DNA from: Pseudomonas wenzhouensis
GTDB taxonomy: Bacteria > Pseudomonadota > Gammaproteobacteria > Pseudomonadales > Pseudomonadaceae
Assembly: GCF_021029445.1 (NCBI RefSeq)
Contig: NZ_CP072610.1
Span: 2,666,001 to 2,730,000, forward strand
DNA: 64,000 nucleotides
Direction of reading: 5' to 3'
This document shows, one piece after another, positions 11,819 through 49,340 of this stretch. Below the pieces are notes generated by a model. It was not told the DNA's origin. It did no database searches and was given only the letters and a program-made list of their open reading frames with translations. The first letter of the stretch is position 1. Every line of letters begins with the position of its first letter. Made by a program: the position numbers and the translations under genes.

Positions 11819-12967
11819 CTATAGCCCCATCTGCTTGGCGATGATTTCGTTCATGATCTCGCGCGTGCCGCCGCCAATGGAGAGGATGCGGTTGTCGCGG
11901 TACAGGCGCTCTACCAGGGACTCGCGCATATAGCCCATGCCGCCCATGATCTGCACCGCATCGTAGGTCAGGCGGTCGGCGATATCGGTGGCGAAGTTCT
12001 TGGCCATGGAGATTTCCTTGATCACGCTTCTGCCGGCCGCCATCTGCGCGGCCTGGCGGTAGGTGAACTCACGGGAGACTTCCAACTGAGTAGCCATCTC
12101 GGCCAGGCGGTGCTTGAGCACCTGGAACTTGCCCACCGGCTTGCCGAACGCCTGGCGCTCGCGCGCCCACTTCATCGACTCTTCCAGCGCCATTTGCGCG
12201 GTCATATTGGCCATGATCGCCAGGCTCAGGCGTTCGCTCTGGAAGTTGGCCATGATGCAGGCGAAGCCGGCGTTCTCCACGCCGATGAGGTTCTCCACCG
12301 GCACCAGGCAGTCATCGAAGAACAGTTCGGCGGTGTCCGACGCCCACCAGCCCATCTTCTTCAGTTTGCGACCGACGGTGAAGCCTGGCGTGCCCTTTTC
12401 CACCAGCAACAGGCTGACGCCGCCAAAGCCCTCGCCACCGGTACGCACCGCCACCGTGTAGTAATCGGCACGCACGCCGCTGGTGATGAAGGTCTTGCTG
12501 CCGTTGATGCGGTAATGGTCGCCATCACACACGGCGCGGGTCTTGAGGTTGGCCACGTCGGAGCCACCGGAAGGCTCGGTGACTGCCAGCGCCATGATCT
12601 TCTCGCCGGCCAGCACCTGCGGCACCACGCGCTCGCGGATGGCAGGCTTGGCCCATTTGACGATGGGCGGCAAACCGATATCCAGCGAGCCCAGCCCGGC
12701 CACCAGGCCGCCCGAGCCGCTGCGCATCAGTTCCTCGCTGGCTGCGACCTTGGCGAATACGTCGCCCTCGTGGCTGCCGCCGTACTGCTCCGGGTAGCCG
12801 ATACCGAGGATGCCCGCCTCACCTGCCTTGAGGTACAGCTCACGAGGAAATTCCTCGGCCTCCTCCCACTCGTCGATATGCGGCAGGATCTCGCGCTCGA
12901 CGAAGCGCCGAACAGAATCACGAACCAGTTGGTGGGACTCATCGAAATACGACAGAGCGGCGGCCAT
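11819..12967 (-). CDS. Acyl-CoA dehydrogenase, possible second citronellyl-CoA dehydrogenase
   Basis: A 382-residue FAD acyl-CoA dehydrogenase. ALAVTEPSGGSDVANLKTRA is the flavin/substrate block (about 130-149), and the C-terminus has QIMGGMGYMRESLVERLYRDNRILSIGGGT. Electrons would pass to EtfAB, encoded at 60-62 kb. GGGAG lies upstream of the ATG. A sequence identical at 17 of 18 positions to the atuR-atuA operator lies 34-51 bases before the start, suggesting AtuR control and a role in acyclic terpene or related branched acyl-CoA oxidation. As I recall, the P. aeruginosa counterpart in this position (PA1535) has been discussed with AtuD; this is unchecked. Confidence 0.9.
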   Translation of the reverse strand: MAAALSYFDESHQLVRDSVRRFVEREILPHIDEWEEAEEFPRELYLKAGEAGILGIGYPEQYGGSHEGDVFAKVAASEELMRSGSGGLVAGLGSLDIGLPPIVKWAKPAIRERVVPQVLAGEKIMALAVTEPSGGSDVANLKTRAVCDGDHYRINGSKTFITSGVRADYYTVAVRTGGEGFGGVSLLLVEKGTPGFTVGRKLKKMGWWASDTAELFFDDCLVPVENLIGVENAGFACIMANFQSERLSLAIMANMTAQMALEESMKWARERQAFGKPVGKFQVLKHRLAEMATQLEVSREFTYRQAAQMAAGRSVIKEISMAKNFATDIADRLTYDAVQIMGGMGYMRESLVERLYRDNRILSIGGGTREIMNEIIAKQMGL

Positions 12968-13000
12968 GCGGGTACTCCCGTTATTGTTTTCGCCACCCTA

Positions 13001-13018
13001 ACCTAGCGCTTGCTTGGT
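13001..13018. promoter_or_regulatory. AtuR-type operator before acyl-CoA dehydrogenase
   Basis: ACCTAGCGCTTGCTTGGT differs at one base from the right-hand operator at 39781-39798 in the atuR-atuA gap (ACCAAGCGCTTGCTTGGT). It lies 34 bases upstream of the dehydrogenase ATG, close to the 41-base distance of the atuA operator. Function is inferred from identity and position. Confidence 0.6.
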
Positions 13019-13033
13019 TTTCAAGCGAGCGTT

Positions 13034-13618
13034 TCATTTCTGCTCGTGCAGCGTCTTCCTCACCCGCTCGCCCATTTCGTAGGCCGGCCCTTCCACTGCC
13101 TGGAAATTACGGGTGTAGCGCTGGGCGAAACCATCGGTGCCCCACTCGCGGTACTGCTGCACATGCCATAACTCATGCGCCCAGAGCACAGGGTCGGCGG
13201 CAGCCGCCTGTGCATCACGAAACACCACCACATCCACCAGCGTCACAGCCTGTACGTCGGGGTTCTGCAGCATGACGGTGGCGGCATCCATCTCGTCGGT
13301 GATACCGACGCGATAGCGCACTTCATCGAGCAACGCATCGTCGTAGAACGGCGCGAGCTGCGCGCGAATCATCAGGGGAATTGGCTCGGTGCCGGCTCGG
13401 ATTGCCGCCTGGCGCGATTGCAGCAGCCAGGTTTCGAGGCGCGCCGCCGCCATATTCAGGCCATCTTCCCGCACCCGCACCGGATCGGGCACACATAGGC
13501 AGGAAGCGCCCAGACACACCTGAATCTGCCCAGTCGGGCATTGGGCCTGTGCAGCCAGAGGCGCCCCGATCAGGAACACCAGGGCAATACGGCGCAGAGT
13601 GTCGGCGATCACGGGCAC
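13034..13618 (-). CDS. Secreted HExxH protein (DUF4157-like), Cys-rich N-terminus
   Basis: A 194-residue exported protein. A Sec signal peptide covers about residues 1-25 (FLIGAPLAAQA, likely cut before QCPTG). The mature start holds four closely spaced cysteines (CPTGQIQVCLGASCLC). Near residue 147 is WAHELWHVQQYREWG, an HExxH zinc-protease motif of the type found in DUF4157 proteins, with an E further on in QAVEGPAYEMGERV that could be a third ligand. It lies between the acyl-CoA dehydrogenase and recR, 24 bases before the recR side. Peptidase activity is predicted from the motif only; no substrate can be named. Confidence 0.72.
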   Translation of the reverse strand: MPVIADTLRRIALVFLIGAPLAAQAQCPTGQIQVCLGASCLCVPDPVRVREDGLNMAAARLETWLLQSRQAAIRAGTEPIPLMIRAQLAPFYDDALLDEVRYRVGITDEMDAATVMLQNPDVQAVTLVDVVVFRDAQAAAADPVLWAHELWHVQQYREWGTDGFAQRYTRNFQAVEGPAYEMGERVRKTLHEQK

Positions 13619-38994: not shown

Positions 38995-39672
38995 TCAAAT
39001 ATCCTTGCACACCAGCGACAGCGCCTCTTCCGCCAGCTGATCCAGGCTCATTGGCCCCTGCGGACGAAACCAGGTATTGGTCCAGCTCAAGGCACCAGTC
39101 AGAAACCGCCGCTGGATGAACGGATCACCCTTGAAATAACCGGCGTCACGCGCCTCGCCCAGCACCTGCAGCCAAAGCTGCTCGTAGGTGTCGCGCAAGG
39201 CCAGAATCTGTGCCTGCCCCCGCTCGGACAACGAACGCCACTCGTAGACCAGCACCGCCATGGCTTCACCGGTACCGCCCATGATCGACTGCAGCTCACA
39301 ACGAATCAGCGCCAGTAGACGCTCACGGGTGCCCTGTGCCGAGGCCAGCGCAGCACGCATCAGCGCCGTGTTATAGATGATGGTCTCCTCCATCACCGCG
39401 CGCAGGATCTCGTCCTTGCTTTTGAAGTGATGAAAGATGCTGCCCGACTGGATGCCAATAGCGCTGGCCAGGTCACGCACCGTGGTGCGCTCATAGCCCT
39501 TGCTGCGGAACAGGTGGGCGGCCATCTGTAACAGCTTGCCACGGGCGCTGTCCGGGTCGGTCACCTGGCCGCTGGCAACCAACTCCAGCATCACGGCCTG
39601 GGCTCTGTGTTCATCCACGCTGATTTCTCCCCTGATTGCCTTGCACGGCAATTGTTCTGATGAGTTCTTCAT
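38995..39672 (-). CDS. atuR: TetR-family repressor AtuR
   Basis: A 225-residue TetR regulator. The HTH is LLQMAAHLFRSKGYERTTVRDLASAIGIQSGSIFHHFKSKDEIL, and the ligand domain matches the acyl-CoA-responsive type. It is divergent from atuA, like AtuR of P. aeruginosa, which represses the atu genes through two inverted-repeat sites in this gap. ATG 39672 is used because the longer frame (to 39774) would run through the operator. Two matching operators lie at 39724-39741 and 39781-39798. Confidence 0.88.
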   Translation of the reverse strand: MKNSSEQLPCKAIRGEISVDEHRAQAVMLELVASGQVTDPDSARGKLLQMAAHLFRSKGYERTTVRDLASAIGIQSGSIFHHFKSKDEILRAVMEETIIYNTALMRAALASAQGTRERLLALIRCELQSIMGGTGEAMAVLVYEWRSLSERGQAQILALRDTYEQLWLQVLGEARDAGYFKGDPFIQRRFLTGALSWTNTWFRPQGPMSLDQLAEEALSLVCKDI

Positions 39673-39723: not shown

Positions 39724-39798
39724 ACCAAGCAAGCGCTTGGGCGCATTTTTGGCCGTTTTGTCGCCTTCCACCACTTTTCAACCAAGCGCTTGCTTGGT
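39724..39798. promoter_or_regulatory. Paired AtuR operators with overlapping atuA promoter
   Basis: ACCAAGCAAGCGCTTGGG (39724-39741) and ACCAAGCGCTTGCTTGGT (39781-39798) are reverse complements but for one terminal base; each has ACCAAGC/GCTTGGT arms. A weak promoter TTGCTT (39790-39795)-17-TTATCA (39813-39818) overlaps the right site. AtuR is reported to bind two 13-bp inverted repeats here in P. aeruginosa, consistent with this layout. Confidence 0.75.
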
Positions 39799-39839
39799 AA
39801 TGTCGACTCACCTTATCAATGTGTGACGGGCCAATTCCA

Positions 39840-41645
39840 ATGACCAAAACCGTACGCATCGGCTGCGCCTCCGCTTTCTGGGGCGATACCTCCACCGCTG
39901 CAGCCCAACTGGTTCGCGGCGCCGAACTGGATTACCTGGTGTTCGACTACCTGGCCGAGATCACCATGTCGATCATGGCCGGCGCCCGCATGAAGAAGCC
40001 GGATGACGGCTACGCCCGTGACTTCGTCGAGGTGCTCGCGCCGCTGCTCGGCGAACTGGCAGCGAAGAAAACCCGCGTCATCAGTAACGCCGGTGGGGTC
40101 AACCCGATGGCCTGCGCCGCCGCCCTGAGCGCCGCCTGCGAGCAGGCCGGGGTGAACCTGAAGATCGCCGTACTGCACGGTGACAACCTGCAACCCAAGC
40201 TTGGCGAGCTGGTCAAGGCCGGCACCCGCGAGATGTTCACGGGCGCCGCGCTGCCGCCCTTCTGCGTCTCGGTCAACGCCTACCTCGGCGCACCGGGCAT
40301 CGTCGCCGCGCTGGAACAGGGCGCCGACATCGTCATCACCGGCCGCGTGGTCGACAGCGCCGTGGTCAGCGCCGCCCTGGTGCACGAATTCAGCTGGGCC
40401 TGGAGCGACTACGACAAGCTGGCCCAGGCCGCACTGGCCGGGCACATCATCGAGTGCGGCGCGCAGTGCACCGGTGGCAACTTCACCGACTGGCGCGACG
40501 TGCCGGATTACGAGCACATCGGCTTCCCCATCGTCGAAGTCGAGAGCGATGGCCGTTTCGTCGTGACCAAGCCGGAGGGTTCCGGCGGCTTGGTCACGCC
40601 TTTTACCGTTGGCGAGCAGATGCTCTACGAGATCGGCGACCCGCGCGCCTATCTGCTGCCGGACGTGATCTGCGATTTCACCCTTGTCGAGCTGAGCCAG
40701 GTCGGCGACAACCGCGTGCAGCTGCGGGGCGCACGCGGCCTGCCGCCCACCGACCAGTACAAGGTCAGCGCCACGCACCCGGACGGTTTCCGCTGCACCG
40801 CCAGCTTCCTGCTCGCCGGTATCGATGCGGTGGCCAAGGCCGAGCGGGTCAGCCAGGCGATCATCAACAAGACCGAAGAGCTGTTCGCCGAGCGCGGCTG
40901 GGGCCGTTATCAGGAAGTCAGCGTCGAGCTGCTCGGCAGCGAAGCCACCTATGGCGTCCATGCTCACCGCAAATACAGCCGCGAAGTGGTGGTGAAGATC
41001 GCCGCACGGCATGCCAAGAAGGAGGCACTGATCCTCTTCTCCCGCGAGATCGCCCAGGCTGCCACCGGCATGGCACCGGGCCTGACCGGCATCGTCGGCG
41101 GCCGCCCCACCGTCTACCCGGTGATCCGCCTGTTCAGCTTCCTGGTGGACAAGAGTGCCTGCGCCCTGAGCGTCGAGATCGATGGCGAACGCCAACCGGT
41201 CGCCCTGCCGCAGATCGATGCCTTCGACCCGGCCCAACTTCGTGCACCAGCCGCTCTGCCCGTCCCCATGGGTGAAGCCGACGCCGCCGTGCCGCTGATC
41301 CGCCTGGCCGTGGCCCGCTCCGGCGACAAGGGCAACCACAGCAACATCGGCGTGATGGCCAGAAAGCCCGAATACCTGGCGTGGATCGCTGCTGCGTTGA
41401 CGCCCGAAGCCGTGGCCAACTGGATGGCGCATACCCTGGACGCCGAACAGGGCCGCGTCAGCCGCTGGTACCTGCCGGGTTGCCACGGCCTCAACTTCCT
41501 GCTGGAGAACGCGCTGGGCGGTGGTGGCGTCGCCAGCCTGCGCATCGACCCGCAGGGCAAGGCGTTCGCCCAGCAGTTGCTGGAGTTCCCGGTGCCGGTG
41601 CCCAAGGCGCTGGCCGACAGCCTGAACACTGCAACCGTCTCGTAG
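39840..41645 (+). CDS. atuA: AtuA, acyclic terpene utilisation protein (DUF1446)
   Basis: A 601-residue cytosolic protein. The N-terminal DUF1446 part includes [20 protein letters not shown] and [18 protein letters not shown], and the C-terminal region (about 490-595) includes [26 protein letters not shown], a second family block. AtuA is needed for citronellol and geraniol growth, but its reaction is not established. ATG 39840 (MTKTVRIG) is preferred to the upstream GTG at 39819. First gene of atuABCDEFG, divergent from atuR with two operators in the gap. Confidence 0.93.
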
Positions 41646-41685
41646 CGCGCCACGCGCACCGCAATCACTCAGGACAACAAGAACA

Positions 41686-42555
41686 ATGAGCTACGACTCC
41701 GTATTCAAACCTGGCCTGTTCAATGAACAGACCATCCTGGTCACCGGTGGTGGCAGCGGCATCGGCCGCTGCGTGGCCCACGAGTTGGCCCACCTCGGCG
41801 CCCATGTGGTGCTGGTCGGGCGCAAGCAGGAAAAGCTGGAGAAGACCTGCGCCGAGATCACCGAGGACGGTGGCAGCGCCAGCTTCCAGGTCTGCGACAT
41901 CCGTGACGAAGACGCCGTGAAGGCCATGGTCGGCGCGGTGATCAGGGAACGCGGGCGCATCCACCAGCTTGTGAACAATGCTGGCGGCCAGTTCCCCGCG
42001 CCGCTGATCGGCATCAACCAGAAAGGCTTCGAGACCGTGGTGCGCACCAATCTGGTGGGCGGCTTTCTGGTGGCCAAGGAAGTCTTCCTGCAGAGCATGA
42101 GCAAGCACGGCGGCAGCATCGTCAACATGCTCGCCGACATGTGGGGCGGCATGCCCGGCATGGGCCATTCGGGGGCGGCGCGGGCCGGCATGGAGAACTT
42201 CACCAAGACCGCCGCCTACGAGTGGGGCCACGCCGGTGTGCGGGTCAACGCCGTAGCGCCGGGCTGGATCGCCTCCAGCGGCATGGACACCTACCCTGAG
42301 TCGATGAAGAACATGATCCGCAACCTCAAGGATCACGTGCCGCTGCAACGCATCGGCACCGAGTCCGAGGTGGCGGCGGCCATCGTTTTCCTGCTCAGCC
42401 CCGGCGCCAACTTCATCAGCGGCAACACCATCCGCATCGATGGCGCCGCCAGCCAGGGCACTCGTGCCTGGACTCTGGGCAAGGCGAAAAACAGCGAATC
42501 CTACAACGGTTTCCACCGGGCCTACGTGCCCGACGTACTGAAAGATCAGGAGTAA
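41686..42555 (+). CDS. atuB: AtuB, PECR-like SDR of terpene pathway
   Basis: A 289-residue SDR-fold protein. The cofactor motif TGGGSGIG (about 20-27) and NNAGGQFPAP are intact. The catalytic position reads MGHSGAARAGMENFTK, as in peroxisomal trans-2-enoyl-CoA reductases (PECR/DECR), not YxxxK. This suggests an enoyl-CoA reductase-type activity rather than an alcohol dehydrogenase. It sits 40 bases after atuA and four bases before atuC. The exact step in citronellol degradation is not settled; enoyl-CoA reduction is an inference. Confidence 0.9.
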   Translation: MSYDSVFKPGLFNEQTILVTGGGSGIGRCVAHELAHLGAHVVLVGRKQEKLEKTCAEITEDGGSASFQVCDIRDEDAVKAMVGAVIRERGRIHQLVNNAGGQFPAPLIGINQKGFETVVRTNLVGGFLVAKEVFLQSMSKHGGSIVNMLADMWGGMPGMGHSGAARAGMENFTKTAAYEWGHAGVRVNAVAPGWIASSGMDTYPESMKNMIRNLKDHVPLQRIGTESEVAAAIVFLLSPGANFISGNTIRIDGAASQGTRAWTLGKAKNSESYNGFHRAYVPDVLKDQE

Positions 42556-42559
42556 GGCG

Positions 42560-44176
42560 ATGCCCGTGATCCAATCGGAAATCGATGTCCATGGCGAAGC
42601 CTTCGCGCAGAACCGCGAAGCCATGCTGAGTGCCATCGCGGCCTTCCGTGACGTGGAGCAGAAGGTGCTCGACAAGGCGCAGGAAGCCAAGGCCAAGTTC
42701 GAGAAGCGCGGCCAGTTGCTGCCGCGTGAACGCATCAACCTGCTGCTCGATGCCGGCGCGCCGTTCCTCGAACTGTCCTCGCTGGCAGGCTACAAACTGC
42801 ACGACGACAAGGACGGCAGCCAGGCAGGTGGCGGCCTGATCGCCGGCATCGGCTACATCGCCGGTGTGCGTTGCCTGGTGATCGCCAACAACAGCGCGAT
42901 CAAGGGCGGCACCATCTCCCCCACCGGCCTGAAGAAATCCCTGCGTCTGCAGCAGATCGCCTTCGAGAACAAGCTGCCGGTGGTGACCCTGGCCGAAAGC
43001 GGTGGCGCCAACCTCAACTACGCCGCCGACATCTTCGTCGAGGGCGCGCGCGGCTTCGCCAACCAGGCGCGCATGTCCGCCATGGGCCTGCCGCAGGTCA
43101 CCGTGGTGCATGGCTCCAGCACTGCTGGCGGGGCTTACCAGCCGGGCCTGTCGGACTACGTGGTGGTGGTGCGCGGCAAGGCCAAGATGTTCCTCGCCGG
43201 CCCGCCTCTGCTCAAAGCCGCCACCGGTGAAATCGCCACCGACGAGCAACTGGGCGGCGCGGAAATGCACGCGCAAGTCGCCGGTACCGCCGAGTACCTG
43301 GCCGAGAACGACGCCGACGGCGTGCGCCTGGCACGCGAGATCCTTGGCATGCTGCCGTGGAACCAGCAACTGCCCGCTCGTGAGAAGCTCACCTGGCGCG
43401 AACCGCTGTACCCGGCCGAGGAACTGCTCGGCCTGGTGCCGGCCGATGCCAAGAAGCCCTACGACGTACGCGAGATCATCGCGCGCATCGCCGATGGCTC
43501 GGAGTTCCTCGACTTCAAGAACGAGTTCGACAGCCAGACCGTCTGCGGCCACCTGCAGATCGAAGGCCAGGCCTGCGGCTTCATCGGCAACAACGGCCCG
43601 ATCACCCCGCAGGGTGCGGCCAAGGCAGCGCAGTTCATCCAGCTGTGCGAGCAGAGCAACACGCCGATCCTGTTCTTCCACAACACCACCGGCTTTATGG
43701 TCGGGACGGAATCGGAACAAAACGGCGTGATCAAGCACGGCTCGAAGATGATCCAGGCCGTGGCCAACGCCACCGTGCCCAAGCTCACCATCGTCGTCGG
43801 CGGCTCCTACGGCGCCGGCAACTACGCCATGTGCGGCCGCGGCCTCGACCCGCGCTTCATCTTCGCCTGGCCCAACAGCCGCACCGCCGTGATGGGCGGC
43901 GCCCAGGCCGGCAAGGTGCTGCGCATCGTCACCGAGGATAAGCACGCCAAGGAAGGCAAGGAAGCCGATCCGAAAATGCTCGACATGCTCGAGCACGTCA
44001 CTGCGCAGAAACTCGACAGCCAGTCCACTGCCCTCTATGGCACCGCCAGCCTGTGGGACGACGGCCTGATCGACCCGCGCGACACGCGCAAGCTGCTGGG
44101 CTTCTTGCTGGACATCTGCGCCGAAGCCAACCTGCGACCTCTGAAATCCAACCGTTTCGGCGTCGCCCGTTTCTGA
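42560..44176 (+). CDS. atuC: Geranyl-CoA carboxylase beta subunit AtuC
   Basis: A 538-residue carboxyltransferase subunit. It transfers CO2 from biotin on AtuF to cis-geranyl-CoA. Visible blocks: LLDAGAPFLELSSLAGYKL, a carboxyltransferase N domain with AESGGANLNYAADIF and GSSTAGGAYQPGLSDYVV, and a C domain with FFHNTTGFMVG and GGSYGAGNYAMCGRGLDPRF. The same fold serves methylcrotonyl-CoA carboxylase, but the atu context assigns geranyl-CoA. The start is four bases after the atuB stop with GGAGTAAGGCG upstream. Confidence 0.94.
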   Translation: MPVIQSEIDVHGEAFAQNREAMLSAIAAFRDVEQKVLDKAQEAKAKFEKRGQLLPRERINLLLDAGAPFLELSSLAGYKLHDDKDGSQAGGGLIAGIGYIAGVRCLVIANNSAIKGGTISPTGLKKSLRLQQIAFENKLPVVTLAESGGANLNYAADIFVEGARGFANQARMSAMGLPQVTVVHGSSTAGGAYQPGLSDYVVVVRGKAKMFLAGPPLLKAATGEIATDEQLGGAEMHAQVAGTAEYLAENDADGVRLAREILGMLPWNQQLPAREKLTWREPLYPAEELLGLVPADAKKPYDVREIIARIADGSEFLDFKNEFDSQTVCGHLQIEGQACGFIGNNGPITPQGAAKAAQFIQLCEQSNTPILFFHNTTGFMVGTESEQNGVIKHGSKMIQAVANATVPKLTIVVGGSYGAGNYAMCGRGLDPRFIFAWPNSRTAVMGGAQAGKVLRIVTEDKHAKEGKEADPKMLDMLEHVTAQKLDSQSTALYGTASLWDDGLIDPRDTRKLLGFLLDICAEANLRPLKSNRFGVARF

Positions 44177-44201
44177 CCCTCATCATCGGAGCACAACAAC
44201 A

Positions 44202-45359
44202 ATGATCTTCACTCAAGAGCACGAAGAACTCCGCCGCACCGTGCGCAACTTCGTCGACAAGGAAATCAACCCGCACGTCGATGAGTGGGAAAAGGAAGGC
44301 CGCTTCCCCATCCACGACATTTTCAAGAAGGCTGGCGAACTGGGCCTGCTGGGCATCTCCAAGCCGGAGAAATTCGGTGGCATGGGTCTGGACTACAGCT
44401 ACTCCATCGTCGCCGCCGAAGAGTTCGGCACCATCCATTGCGGCGGCATCCCCATGTCCATCGGCGTGCAGACCGACATGTGCACCCCGGCCCTGGCGCG
44501 CTTCGGCTCCGATGAGCTGCGCGAGGAGTTCCTGCGCCCGGCCATCAGCGGCGAGATGGTTGGCTGCATCGGCGTCTCCGAAGTCGGCGCCGGTTCAGAC
44601 GTGGCGGGCCTGAAGACCACCGCCCGCAAGGACGGCGACGACTACGTGATCAACGGCAGCAAAATGTGGATCACCAACTCGCCGTCGGCCGACTTCATCT
44701 GCCTGCTGGCCAACACCAGCGACGACAAGCCGCACGTCAACAAATCGCTGATCGTGGTGCCGATGAAGACGCCCGGCATCACCGTCAGCCCGCATCTGGA
44801 CAAGCTCGGCATGCGCAGCTCGGAAACCGCTCAGGTGTTCTTCGACAACGTGCGCGTGCCGCAGCGCTATCGCATCGGCCACGATGGCGCCGGTTTCATG
44901 ATGCAGATGCTGCAGTTCCAGGAAGAGCGTCTGTTTGGCGCCGCCAACATCATCAAGGGGCTGGAATACTGCATCGACACCACCATCGACTACTGCAAGC
45001 AGCGCCACACCTTTGGCCAACCACTGATCGACAACCAGGTCATCCACTTCCGCCTGGCCGAACTGCAGACCGATATCGAGTGCCTGCGTGCGCTGGTCTA
45101 CCAGGCCACCGAGCAGTATGTGAAAGGTCGTGACGTGACCAAGCTGGCGTCGATGGCCAAGCTCAAGGCCGGCCGCCTGGGCCGCGAGGTGTCCGACGCC
45201 TGCCTGCAATACTGGGGCGGCATGGGCTTCATGTGGGACAACCCGGTGTCGCGCGCCTACCGCGACGTGCGCCTGGTCAGCATCGGCGGCGGTGCCGACG
45301 AAATCATGCTCGGCATCATCTGCAAGCTGATGGGCATTCTGCCCGGGAAGAAAAAATAG
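44202..45359 (+). CDS. atuD: Citronellyl-CoA dehydrogenase AtuD
   Basis: A 385-residue FAD acyl-CoA dehydrogenase converting citronellyl-CoA to geranyl-CoA with electrons going to EtfAB. GCIGVSEVGAGSDVAGLKTTAR and the C-terminal YWGGMGFMWDNPVSRAYRDVRLVSIGGGADEIM are characteristic. It starts 25 bases after atuC, with CATCGGAGC upstream. The other dehydrogenase at 11819 shares the operator type and could be its isoenzyme. A REP cluster separates atuD from atuE. Confidence 0.94.
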   Translation: MIFTQEHEELRRTVRNFVDKEINPHVDEWEKEGRFPIHDIFKKAGELGLLGISKPEKFGGMGLDYSYSIVAAEEFGTIHCGGIPMSIGVQTDMCTPALARFGSDELREEFLRPAISGEMVGCIGVSEVGAGSDVAGLKTTARKDGDDYVINGSKMWITNSPSADFICLLANTSDDKPHVNKSLIVVPMKTPGITVSPHLDKLGMRSSETAQVFFDNVRVPQRYRIGHDGAGFMMQMLQFQEERLFGAANIIKGLEYCIDTTIDYCKQRHTFGQPLIDNQVIHFRLAELQTDIECLRALVYQATEQYVKGRDVTKLASMAKLKAGRLGREVSDACLQYWGGMGFMWDNPVSRAYRDVRLVSIGGGADEIMLGIICKLMGILPGKKK

Positions 45360-45383
45360 CCGGGACGATTCTGCGAGCTGATG

Positions 45384-45495
45384 CTTCCCACGTCGAGGCG
45401 TCGAACCGTCCGCGTGGGAACCCATAACGGGACGCTCCGCGTTCCAGCGACGCAGAGCGTCGCCAAATGCATTTCCACGCGGAGCGTGGGAACGA
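45384..45495. repeat. Long REP palindrome between atuD and atuE
   Basis: TTCCCACG at the left and CGTGGGAACG at the right bracket inner pieces gggacgctccgcgttc and gcagagcgtcgc. It fills most of the 151-base gap in the atu operon and belongs to a different REP family from those in the other gaps. Confidence 0.8.
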
Positions 45496-45510
45496 TCTAA
45501 AGGTGCCCCC

Positions 45511-46308
45511 ATGAGCAACCTGCCCCACTGCGAAACCCTGCTGCTGAACCTAGAAGGTGGCGTGCTGCACGTCACCCTCAACCGCCCGGACAGCCGCAAC
45601 GCCATGAGCCTGGCCATGGTCGGCGAACTGCGCGCTACGCTGGAGGCCGTGCGTCATGATCCGAACGTGCGCGCCCTCGTCCTGCGTGGTGCCGATGGTC
45701 ACTTCTGTGCCGGCGGCGATATCAAGGACATGGCCGGCGCCCGCGCCAAGGGAGGTGACGCCTATCGCGAGCTGAACCGCGCCTTCGGTGCGCTGCTGGA
45801 AGAAGCTCAGGCCGCGCCGCAGGTGCTGGTGGCGGTGCTGGAAGGCGCCGTGCTCGGCGGCGGCTTCGGCCTGGCCTGCGTATCCGATGTGGCCATCGCT
45901 GCCAGCGGCGCCAAGTTCGGCCTGCCGGAAACCACGCTAGGTATCCTCCCGGCGCAGATCGCCCCCTTCGTCGTGCACCGCATCGGCCTGACCCAAGCGC
46001 GCCGCCTGGCGCTGACCGCTGCCCGCTTCGACGGTGCCGAAGCCCTGCGTCTGGGCCTGGTGCATTACTGCGAGGACGGTGACGCCGCCCTGCAACAGCG
46101 CCTGGACGAGACCCTGGAACAGATTCGCCAATGTGCGCCACAGGCCAATGCGCAGACCAAGGCCCTGCTGCTGGCCAGCGAAGGCGAAGCGCTCGGCCCG
46201 TTGCTCGACCGCGCAGCCGAACAGTTCGCTGCCGCCGTGACCGGCGCCGAGGGCGTCGAAGGCACCATGGCCTTCGTGCAGAAGCGTAAGCCGAAGTGGG
46301 CGCAATGA
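45511..46308 (+). CDS. atuE: Isohexenylglutaconyl-CoA hydratase AtuE
   Basis: A 265-residue crotonase-fold enzyme that adds water to isohexenylglutaconyl-CoA. GADGHFCAGGDIKDM (about 58-72) supplies the oxyanion hole, and EGAVLGGGFGLACVSDVAIAA with FGLPETTLGILP carries the second. A lyase follows in the pathway. ATG 45511 is preceded by GGTGCCCCC. Homologous to LiuC/methylglutaconyl-CoA hydratases, with assignment by its atu context. A REP follows the stop by 28 bases. Confidence 0.92.
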   Translation: MSNLPHCETLLLNLEGGVLHVTLNRPDSRNAMSLAMVGELRATLEAVRHDPNVRALVLRGADGHFCAGGDIKDMAGARAKGGDAYRELNRAFGALLEEAQAAPQVLVAVLEGAVLGGGFGLACVSDVAIAASGAKFGLPETTLGILPAQIAPFVVHRIGLTQARRLALTAARFDGAEALRLGLVHYCEDGDAALQQRLDETLEQIRQCAPQANAQTKALLLASEGEALGPLLDRAAEQFAAAVTGAEGVEGTMAFVQKRKPKWAQ

Positions 46309-46335
46309 TGGATTGGCTGGACTGACATGATCGAC

Positions 46336-46399
46336 CGTAGCCCGGATGTAATCCGGGAGCGCTCGCCAAAATGATTCCCCGGATTGCATCCGGGCTACG
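46336..46399. repeat. REP hairpin between atuE and atuF
   Basis: GTAGCCCGGATGTAATCCGGG (46337-46357, in two segments) mirrors CCCCGGATTGCATCCGGGCTAC (46377-46398). It lies wholly within the 109-base gap before atuF. Confidence 0.85.
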
Positions 46400-46417
46400 C
46401 ACAGCAGGAGCACAAAG

Positions 46418-48406
<1,989 letters not shown>

Positions 48407-48416
48407 CTACATCACC

Positions 48417-48485
48417 GTGGGAGGGGCTTTAGCCGCGAGCGTTGTTCATCGCGGCTAAAGCGGATCGCCGCCCGGCCCTTCCCAC
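48417..48485. repeat. REP hairpin between atuF and atuG
   Basis: The outer arms GTGGGAGGGG (48417-48426) and CCCTTCCCAC (48476-48485) bracket an inner pair, GGCTTTAGCCGCGA and TCGCGGCTAAAGC. It belongs to a third REP family and fills the gap before atuG. Confidence 0.82.
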
Positions 48486-48515
48486 GGCCCCATAACAACA
48501 AGAAGGAGCACGCCC

Positions 48516-49340
48516 ATGTCACTGTCCGGCAAAACCCTGTTCATCACTGGCGCCAGCCGTGGCATCGGCCGCGAGATCGCCCTCAAGGCCGCCGCCGATG
48601 GCGCCAACATCGTCATCGCGGCCAAGAGCGCCGAGCCACACCCGAAACTGGAAGGCACCATCTTCAGCGTCGCCGCCGAGGTCGAAGCCGCTGGCGGCAA
48701 GGCCCTGGCACTGCAGCTGGACGTGCGCGACGAACAGGCCGTGGCCGCCGCCATGGCCCAGGCTGCCGAGCATTTCGGCGGCATCGACGCCCTGGTCAAC
48801 AACGCCGGCGCGATCAAGCTGGTGGGCGTGGAAAAACTCGAACCCAAGCGATTCGACCTGATGTACCAGATCAACACCCGCGCAGTGATGGTCTGCAGCC
48901 AGGCGGCACTTCCCTATCTGAAGAAGAGCGCGGGTGGGCATATTCTCAACCTCTCGCCGCCACTCAACCTCGATGCCAAGTGGTTCGCCCAGCACGGCCC
49001 CTACACCGTCACCAAGTACGGCATGAGCATGCTCACCATGGGCATGAGCGAGGAGTTCAAGAAGTACGGCATCAGCGTCAACTCGCTGTGGCCGAAGACC
49101 ATGATCGCCACCGCCGCCATCGAATTCGAACTGGGCAGCCGCGACGCCTTCAAACGTGCGCGCACGCCGGCGATCATGGCTGACGCCGCCCATGCGATTC
49201 TGAGCAGCGAAGGCCGCAGCATCAGCGGGCGTCTGCTGATCGACGAGGACATCCTGCGCGAACGGGGCGTCAACGATTTCGAGCAGTACCGTTTCGATCC
49301 CGCTGGCGGCAGCCTAGTGCCGGATCTGTTTGTCGACTAA
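48516..49340 (+). CDS. atuG: AtuG, short-chain dehydrogenase of the terpene cluster
   Basis: A 274-residue SDR resembling the HSDL2-type hydroxysteroid dehydrogenase-like group. TGASRGIG at about 10-17, NNAGAI and the active-site block NLSPPLNLDAKWFAQHGPYTVTKYG (Tyr-x-x-x-Lys: YTVTK) are visible, so unlike AtuB it has a full catalytic set. It may act on citronellol/citronellal or a hydroxyacyl-CoA, but this is not known. Last atu gene here; AAGAAGGAGCACG lies upstream. No AtuH-like acyl-CoA synthetase follows. Confidence 0.9.
   Translation: MSLSGKTLFITGASRGIGREIALKAAADGANIVIAAKSAEPHPKLEGTIFSVAAEVEAAGGKALALQLDVRDEQAVAAAMAQAAEHFGGIDALVNNAGAIKLVGVEKLEPKRFDLMYQINTRAVMVCSQAALPYLKKSAGGHILNLSPPLNLDAKWFAQHGPYTVTKYGMSMLTMGMSEEFKKYGISVNSLWPKTMIATAAIEFELGSRDAFKRARTPAIMADAAHAILSSEGRSISGRLLIDEDILRERGVNDFEQYRFDPAGGSLVPDLFVD

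Follow-up and report, generated by a model that had tools for sequence, protein, structure and literature searches.

A single AtuR-type operator before a PA1535-type acyl-CoA dehydrogenase gene points to a probable dispersed AtuR regulon in Pseudomonas

The closest described counterparts of the locus reported here are the operators of the repressor AtuR and of its orthologue RdmA. Binding of AtuR in Pseudomonas aeruginosa is cited within PMC9973270, and the part of that paper covered here gives AGCAAGCGCTTGG and CCAAGCGCTTGCT as the AtuR-binding repeats; it also describes RdmA, the AtuR orthologue of P. nitroreducens, which binds two repeats of the same core before dmgA and represses until DSF releases it. 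The enzyme side is described in the abstract of Foerster-Fromme et al. (reprinted in PMC4714473)—the PA1535 protein of P. aeruginosa is present on acyclic terpenes and absent on isovalerate or succinate, has high citronellyl-CoA dehydrogenase activity and also oxidises octanoyl-CoA, and has a lower affinity for citronellyl-CoA than AtuD; mutants show that AtuD is essential on terpenes and PA1535 is not. The PA1535-type gene and its terpene induction have been on record since 2008.

For the acids of the pathway, the parts covered of PMC8637051 and PMC3667196 ascribe the use of citronellic and geranic acid mostly to fadD4 and little, if at all, to atuH; growth on terpenes is poor when fadD4 or PA1618 carries a Gm insertion (fadD4::Gm, PA1618::Gm), for which the authors partly blame polar effects. 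In these parts no regulator of fadD4 is named and no link to AtuR is made. A microarray study of cis-2-decenoic acid, also covered in part, places PA1535, several atu genes, and PA2885 among very many affected genes (PMC4412052). In the papers covered we found no statement that AtuR controls PA1535 or fadD4, and neither PMC8041468 nor PMC13086498 contains the word AtuR in its main text; an AtuR iModulon is named in the part covered of PMC9023270, and some of the regulon may already have been described. What sequence comparison appears to add is an operator common to the dehydrogenase gene and fadD4, together with a nested pattern of co-occurrence with AtuR.

The locus lies in Pseudomonas wenzhouensis, in a stretch of 64,000 nucleotides that we analysed as a whole and refer to as the window. 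Open reading frames at 39819-49340 on the plus strand form the atu cluster in the order atuA to atuG, with NCBIfam matches for five; the gene names are those we presume from order and family. AtuR, a TetR-family repressor with TetR_N and TetR_C_24 domains, is encoded divergently to atuA at 38995-39672 on the minus strand, with a length of 225 aa from the start codon that we chose. The atuR-atuA region holds a left operator at 39724-39741 on the minus strand, containing the 13-mer AGCAAGCGCTTGG at 39728, and a right operator at 39781-39798 on the plus strand, containing CCAAGCGCTTGCT at 39782.

A further site of this kind, ACCTAGCGCTTGCTTGGT at 13001-13018, has one mismatch to the right operator (plus strand) and two to the left (minus strand). 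It belongs to a gene on the minus strand, in whose direction it reads ACCAAGCAAGCGCTAGGT, and it keeps 12 of the 13 core positions; the changed base falls in a variable column of the footprint. At up to three mismatches the window contains three matches only, this one and the two atuR-atuA sites, whereas 100 shuffles gave a mean of 0.06 matches and never three. The likeness to the atuR-atuA operator is confirmed as real, and it is far beyond chance. An earlier note on this DNA had reported a match at 17 of 18 positions to the right operator and a distance of 26 kb from the atu cluster; the window scan bears out both, the distance to the right operator being about 26.8 kb. Its figure of 34 bases before the start holds as a difference of coordinates, but the bases actually lying between the site and the ATG (12967, minus strand) number 33 (12968-13000). 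The site before the gene is single: at up to three mismatches no second match accompanies it to make a pair of repeats about 40 bp apart.

The note had also considered that the motif might be frequent at random sites in the genome. With at most one mismatch, ACCAAGCNNTTGCTTGGT occurs at only five places in the whole 4.45-Mb genome—the two atuR-atuA sites, 13001-13018, C1:2526073-2526090 before fadD4, and C1:937702-937719 before another acyl-CoA dehydrogenase gene. The three sites outside atuR-atuA stand 33, 34, and 45 bases before a start codon, respectively, and all three genes behind them serve CoA-ester metabolism. When three mismatches are allowed the count rises to 49, with 15 for the reversed pattern; it is thus weak matches that abound in this genome, and not near-perfect ones. 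Among the weaker ones, a 2-mismatch site precedes a lipoprotein-like ORF (C1:3176625) and a 3-mismatch site lies near an NqrA-like ORF (C1:3037250); a match to the core only at C1:583411 lies inside a gene and was set aside.

The gene behind 13001-13018, at 11819-12967 on the minus strand, encodes an acyl-CoA dehydrogenase (ACAD) of 382 aa with all three ACAD Pfam domains; an NCBIfam search of it returned nothing at the curated cut-off. The orthologue in P. aeruginosa PA7 shares 90% identity with it and is the only match in that genome (G198) at E 1e-140; there, as in the window, dnaX and a RecR-like ORF precede the gene. Identity to AtuD of the same window, encoded at 44202-45359, is only 39%, which speaks against orthology with AtuD. 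RecR is PA1534 of P. aeruginosa in the part covered of PMC4321378, and from the order of locus numbers we take the ACAD behind it to be PA1535. Citronellyl-CoA dehydrogenase activity is reported for PA1535 and, by analogy, predicted for the ACAD of the window. The published activity and terpene expression of this orthologue give substance to the note's proposal of a second citronellyl-CoA-type dehydrogenase (abstract, PMC4714473); its suggestion that an isoenzyme could account for terpene growth in the absence of AtuD finds no support, since in the same abstract the mutants reveal AtuD as the essential enzyme and not PA1535. The window also encodes a small protein with an eCIS_core domain (13034-13618; Pfam PF13699), placed between recR and the ACAD gene, and no such ORF is found at the corresponding place in the PA7 locus.

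Conservation of the site was followed in the best 80 of 466 ACAD relatives (77 titled Pseudomonas, one Serpens, and two Gammaproteobacteria MAGs). All 80 carry the operator before the gene, at a uniform place and in a uniform orientation, with 16 of 16 positions matching in 17 loci, 15 in 57, and 14 in six; in 2000 windows drawn at random from these loci, the score never exceeds 12 where the best match lies elsewhere. A further 20 upstream regions, picked from the family sample to cover the most divergent orthologues and drawn partly from the same genomes, all score 15 or 16 at protein identities down to 77%. In an alignment of 81 sequences (the 80 and the window) the operator columns average 1.86 bits against 0.39 for the 114 flanking columns, 84 of which fall below 0.5 bits. 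Each operator column carries 1.6-2.0 bits save one of 0.48 bits, and this is the base changed in the present strain. One close relative (G292) is of separate interest: its AtuR is 92% identical and its ACAD only 84%, the two genes (C1:2570300-2571445 and C1:2597003-2597644) lie 27 kb apart as in the window, and the upstream site (L212) scores 15 of 16, which may mean that the ACAD allele was replaced while its operator stayed.

The operator may lie within a promoter. Touching the operator at 13019-13024 on the minus strand is TTGAAA, a likely -35 element, of which TTG is found in 81/81 aligned upstream regions and the full hexamer in 47/81. The hexamer 17 bases further on, at 12996-13001 on the minus strand, would mark a weak -10 position by its place only; it is TTAGGG here and in 15/81 regions altogether, most commonly TAAGTT (27/81), and others in the rest. 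A sigma-70 promoter scan of this strain's ACAD upstream region gave no match at the scan threshold. Given the invariant TTG on the one hand, and the variable -10 hexamer and the lack of a sigma-70 match on the other, we infer rather than assert a promoter that carries the operator in the spacer between its -35 and -10 positions.

Distribution across the family ties the motif to AtuR. Orthologues of AtuR, at least 75% identical, are present in all 80 named ACAD-bearing genomes. Of 298 sampled Pseudomonadaceae genomes, 146 have AtuR, 129 the ACAD, and 140 the exact motif ACCNAGCNCTTGCTTGGT. AtuR and the motif accompany the ACAD in 129 of 129 cases, and every one of the 140 motif genomes is AtuR-positive (140/146 AtuR-positive against 0/152 AtuR-negative genomes). 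The reversed pattern is zero in every genome row. Fisher p values of 4e-66 and 9e-79 for co-occurrence ignore kinship and overstate the evidence, as the genomes are related. That the motif actually stands before the ACAD gene was seen directly, as regards these 129 genomes, for the fetched upstream regions only (80 and 20). AtuR occurs without the ACAD in 17/146 genomes, without the exact motif in 6/146, and without FadD4 at the cut-off in 11; the satellites are therefore not obligatory. In three AtuR-positive genomes (G298, G348, and G353; L335, L336, and L337) both the ACAD and FadD4 are missing and the best site on the atuR side scores only 12 of 16, which may mean that the operator drifts once the satellites have been lost.

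The same operator recurs at other genes. Among the matches listed, 58 of 59 classified operator loci precede atuR-atuA, a PA1535-type ACAD, or fadD4; the 59 are mainly exact matches and leave out most other listed ones, including fourth sites in several genomes. In the present genome (G000) the fadD4 operator, ACCAAGCACTTGCTTGGT, has perfect arms and lies outside the window at C1:2526073-2526090 (L228:3074-3091), 34 bases before the gene and about 153 kb from 13001-13018. The gene (C1:2524374-2526038) codes for a 555-aa enzyme of the AMP-binding type; the part covered of PMC8637051 gives FadD4 (PA1617) this same length, and the signature motifs nearly match those of FadD4. The protein is 75% identical to the PA7 protein, and 75% is also the figure for PA1617 and its P. 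mendocina homologue in the part covered of PMC3667196. A 4HBT thioesterase gene follows, as PA1618 follows PA1617. FadD4 is found in 143 of the 298 genomes, 135 of them AtuR-positive and eight AtuR-negative (all of genus g5 and at most 61% identical). Upstream regions of fadD4 from 20 genomes show the operator in 9/12 AtuR-positive and 0/8 AtuR-negative cases; the three AtuR-positive genomes that have FadD4 and lack the operator are, like the eight, of genus g5, so its absence may reflect lineage and not loss of AtuR.

The remaining near-perfect site, ACCAAGCGTTTGCTTGGC at C1:937702-937719 (L227:3203-3220), again outside the window, stands 45 bases before a third ACAD gene (C1:937765-938901, 379 aa), from which an AraC-like gene runs divergently. 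The operator precedes 22 of its 30 closest orthologues; in a set of 20 mostly more distant ones it is seen in 0/4 AtuR-negative genomes and 1/16 AtuR-positive ones, weakly (13 of 16), a contrast that carries no information on AtuR. Operator-like sites also lie upstream of DUF1302-like outer-membrane genes in G296 (L249), P. aeruginosa PA7 (L347), and P. otitidis (L350), two of them adjoining a FadD-like gene; L249, whose gene we presume to be DUF1302-like, is the one locus of the 59 outside the three main classes. The PA7 and P. otitidis sites (C1:1186429 and C30:9653) were rejected as third-ACAD sites, since DUF1302-like genes adjoin them; the DUF1302-like loci are possible lineage-specific members of the regulon.

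Which protein uses the site, and whether the site is an operator at all, can be weighed against this background. A stem of 13 pairs at 13005-13033, overlapping the operator, looks like a terminator, and one could read it as the intrinsic terminator of a plus-strand transcript, its likeness to the atu operator being incidental. Only the operator side of the stem is conserved, its other half falling beyond the conserved block, and a terminator leaves the same 18-mer at fadD4 and atuR-atuA unexplained; with its outer half unconserved, we rule this reading out as extremely improbable. It is improbable as well that the site is used not by AtuR but by a different TetR-family protein that prefers the same DNA. 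TetR paralogues can share operators, 20 TetR_N proteins were found in the genome, and the exact motif is missing in six AtuR-positive genomes. Against this stand the motif's presence in 0/152 AtuR-negative genomes and the presence of AtuR in 129/129 ACAD genomes; moreover, the other 19 TetR_N proteins are not close to AtuR, the best aligning with a score of 119 against 1137 for AtuR with itself, and none has its recognition helix. Conservation of the site, the occurrence of gene and exact motif within the sample in AtuR-positive genomes only, and the lack of a close TetR relative together argue for AtuR and not a paralogue, so that the control by AtuR proposed in the note gains comparative support. 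AtuR would bind at 13001-13018 and likewise at the fadD4 and third-ACAD sites.

A different question is what the ACAD is for. If AtuR binds, the enzyme could still serve general medium-chain or DSF-type acyl-CoA oxidation, with the terpene link secondary. PA1535 accepts octanoyl-CoA, has the lower affinity for citronellyl-CoA, and is dispensable on terpenes (abstract, PMC4714473); RdmA responds to DSF-type acids (PMC9973270, in the part covered); and cis-2-decenoic acid affects PA1535 and atu genes, along with many others (PMC4412052, likewise). Against it counts that the PA1535 protein appeared with acyclic terpenes but was absent with isovalerate or succinate (abstract, PMC4714473), and that the ACAD gene was found, in 298 genomes, only alongside AtuR; we consider this assignment possible but rather unlikely.

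We therefore favour, with considerable confidence, the reading that 13001-13018 is a single AtuR operator in the ACAD promoter and that the ACAD is a satellite of a dispersed AtuR regulon, supporting AtuD. By analogy with RdmA before dmgA, AtuR would sit on the operator between TTGAAA and the -10 position and block RNA polymerase by steric repression; release would come from a ligand derived from an acyclic terpene, or from a related, DSF-like acyl compound that is branched or has a cis-2 double bond, and the ACAD would then be made together with the atu cluster. The putative regulon would comprise the atu cluster, the ACAD (as a broad citronellyl-CoA/octanoyl-CoA dehydrogenase), fadD4 with the thioesterase (the step that would activate citronellic and geranic acid), and a further ACAD in part of the genus. 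Most likely the ACAD supports AtuD and later beta-oxidation and widens the substrate range beside AtuD to octanoyl-CoA; it would not be a substitute for AtuD. It is also probable, though less firmly so, that AtuR acts as master switch for a scattered Pseudomonas regulon, with single operators at unlinked places bringing fadD4-PA1618, PA1535 and, by lineage, the third ACAD and DUF1302-like genes under the control that governs the atu cluster. If true, the remoteness of the main terpenoyl-CoA synthetase from atu would be accounted for.

The operator is the likely cis-element behind the 2008 observation of PA1535 on terpenes only, and AtuR is predicted to control the unlinked fadD4 genes as well, to which P. 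aeruginosa owes most of its use of citronellic and geranic acid. One repressor probably runs several scattered genes of plant-terpene breakdown in Pseudomonas; and because RdmA answers DSF-type quorum signals, the regulon suggests where further DSF-breakdown enzymes may be found.

Set beside the known systems, the ACAD site resembles the operators of AtuR (atuR-atuA of P. aeruginosa) and RdmA (dmgA of P. nitroreducens HS-18) in 12 of 13 positions of the CCAAGCGCTTGCT core, in its place close upstream of a gene of acyl-CoA metabolism, and in being present only with AtuR. It differs in being one site instead of two 40-42 bases apart and, from atuR-atuA, in serving another transcription unit 26.8 kb from atu, at which AtuR presumably binds. 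The fadD4-PA1618 pair (PA1617-PA1618) shares the operator, there 34 bases before the start, but encodes an acyl-CoA synthetase and not a dehydrogenase. AtuD is of the same family at 39% identity and, like PA1535, acts on citronellyl-CoA; however, growth on terpenes requires AtuD, which does not act on octanoyl-CoA, whereas PA1535 is dispensable and uses octanoyl-CoA (abstract, PMC4714473). On the operator and on AtuR control of PA1535 that published abstract is silent; PA1535 is nonetheless the closest counterpart of the ACAD, with a protein 90% identical (PA7), the same place behind dnaX and recR, and the same operator (L204).
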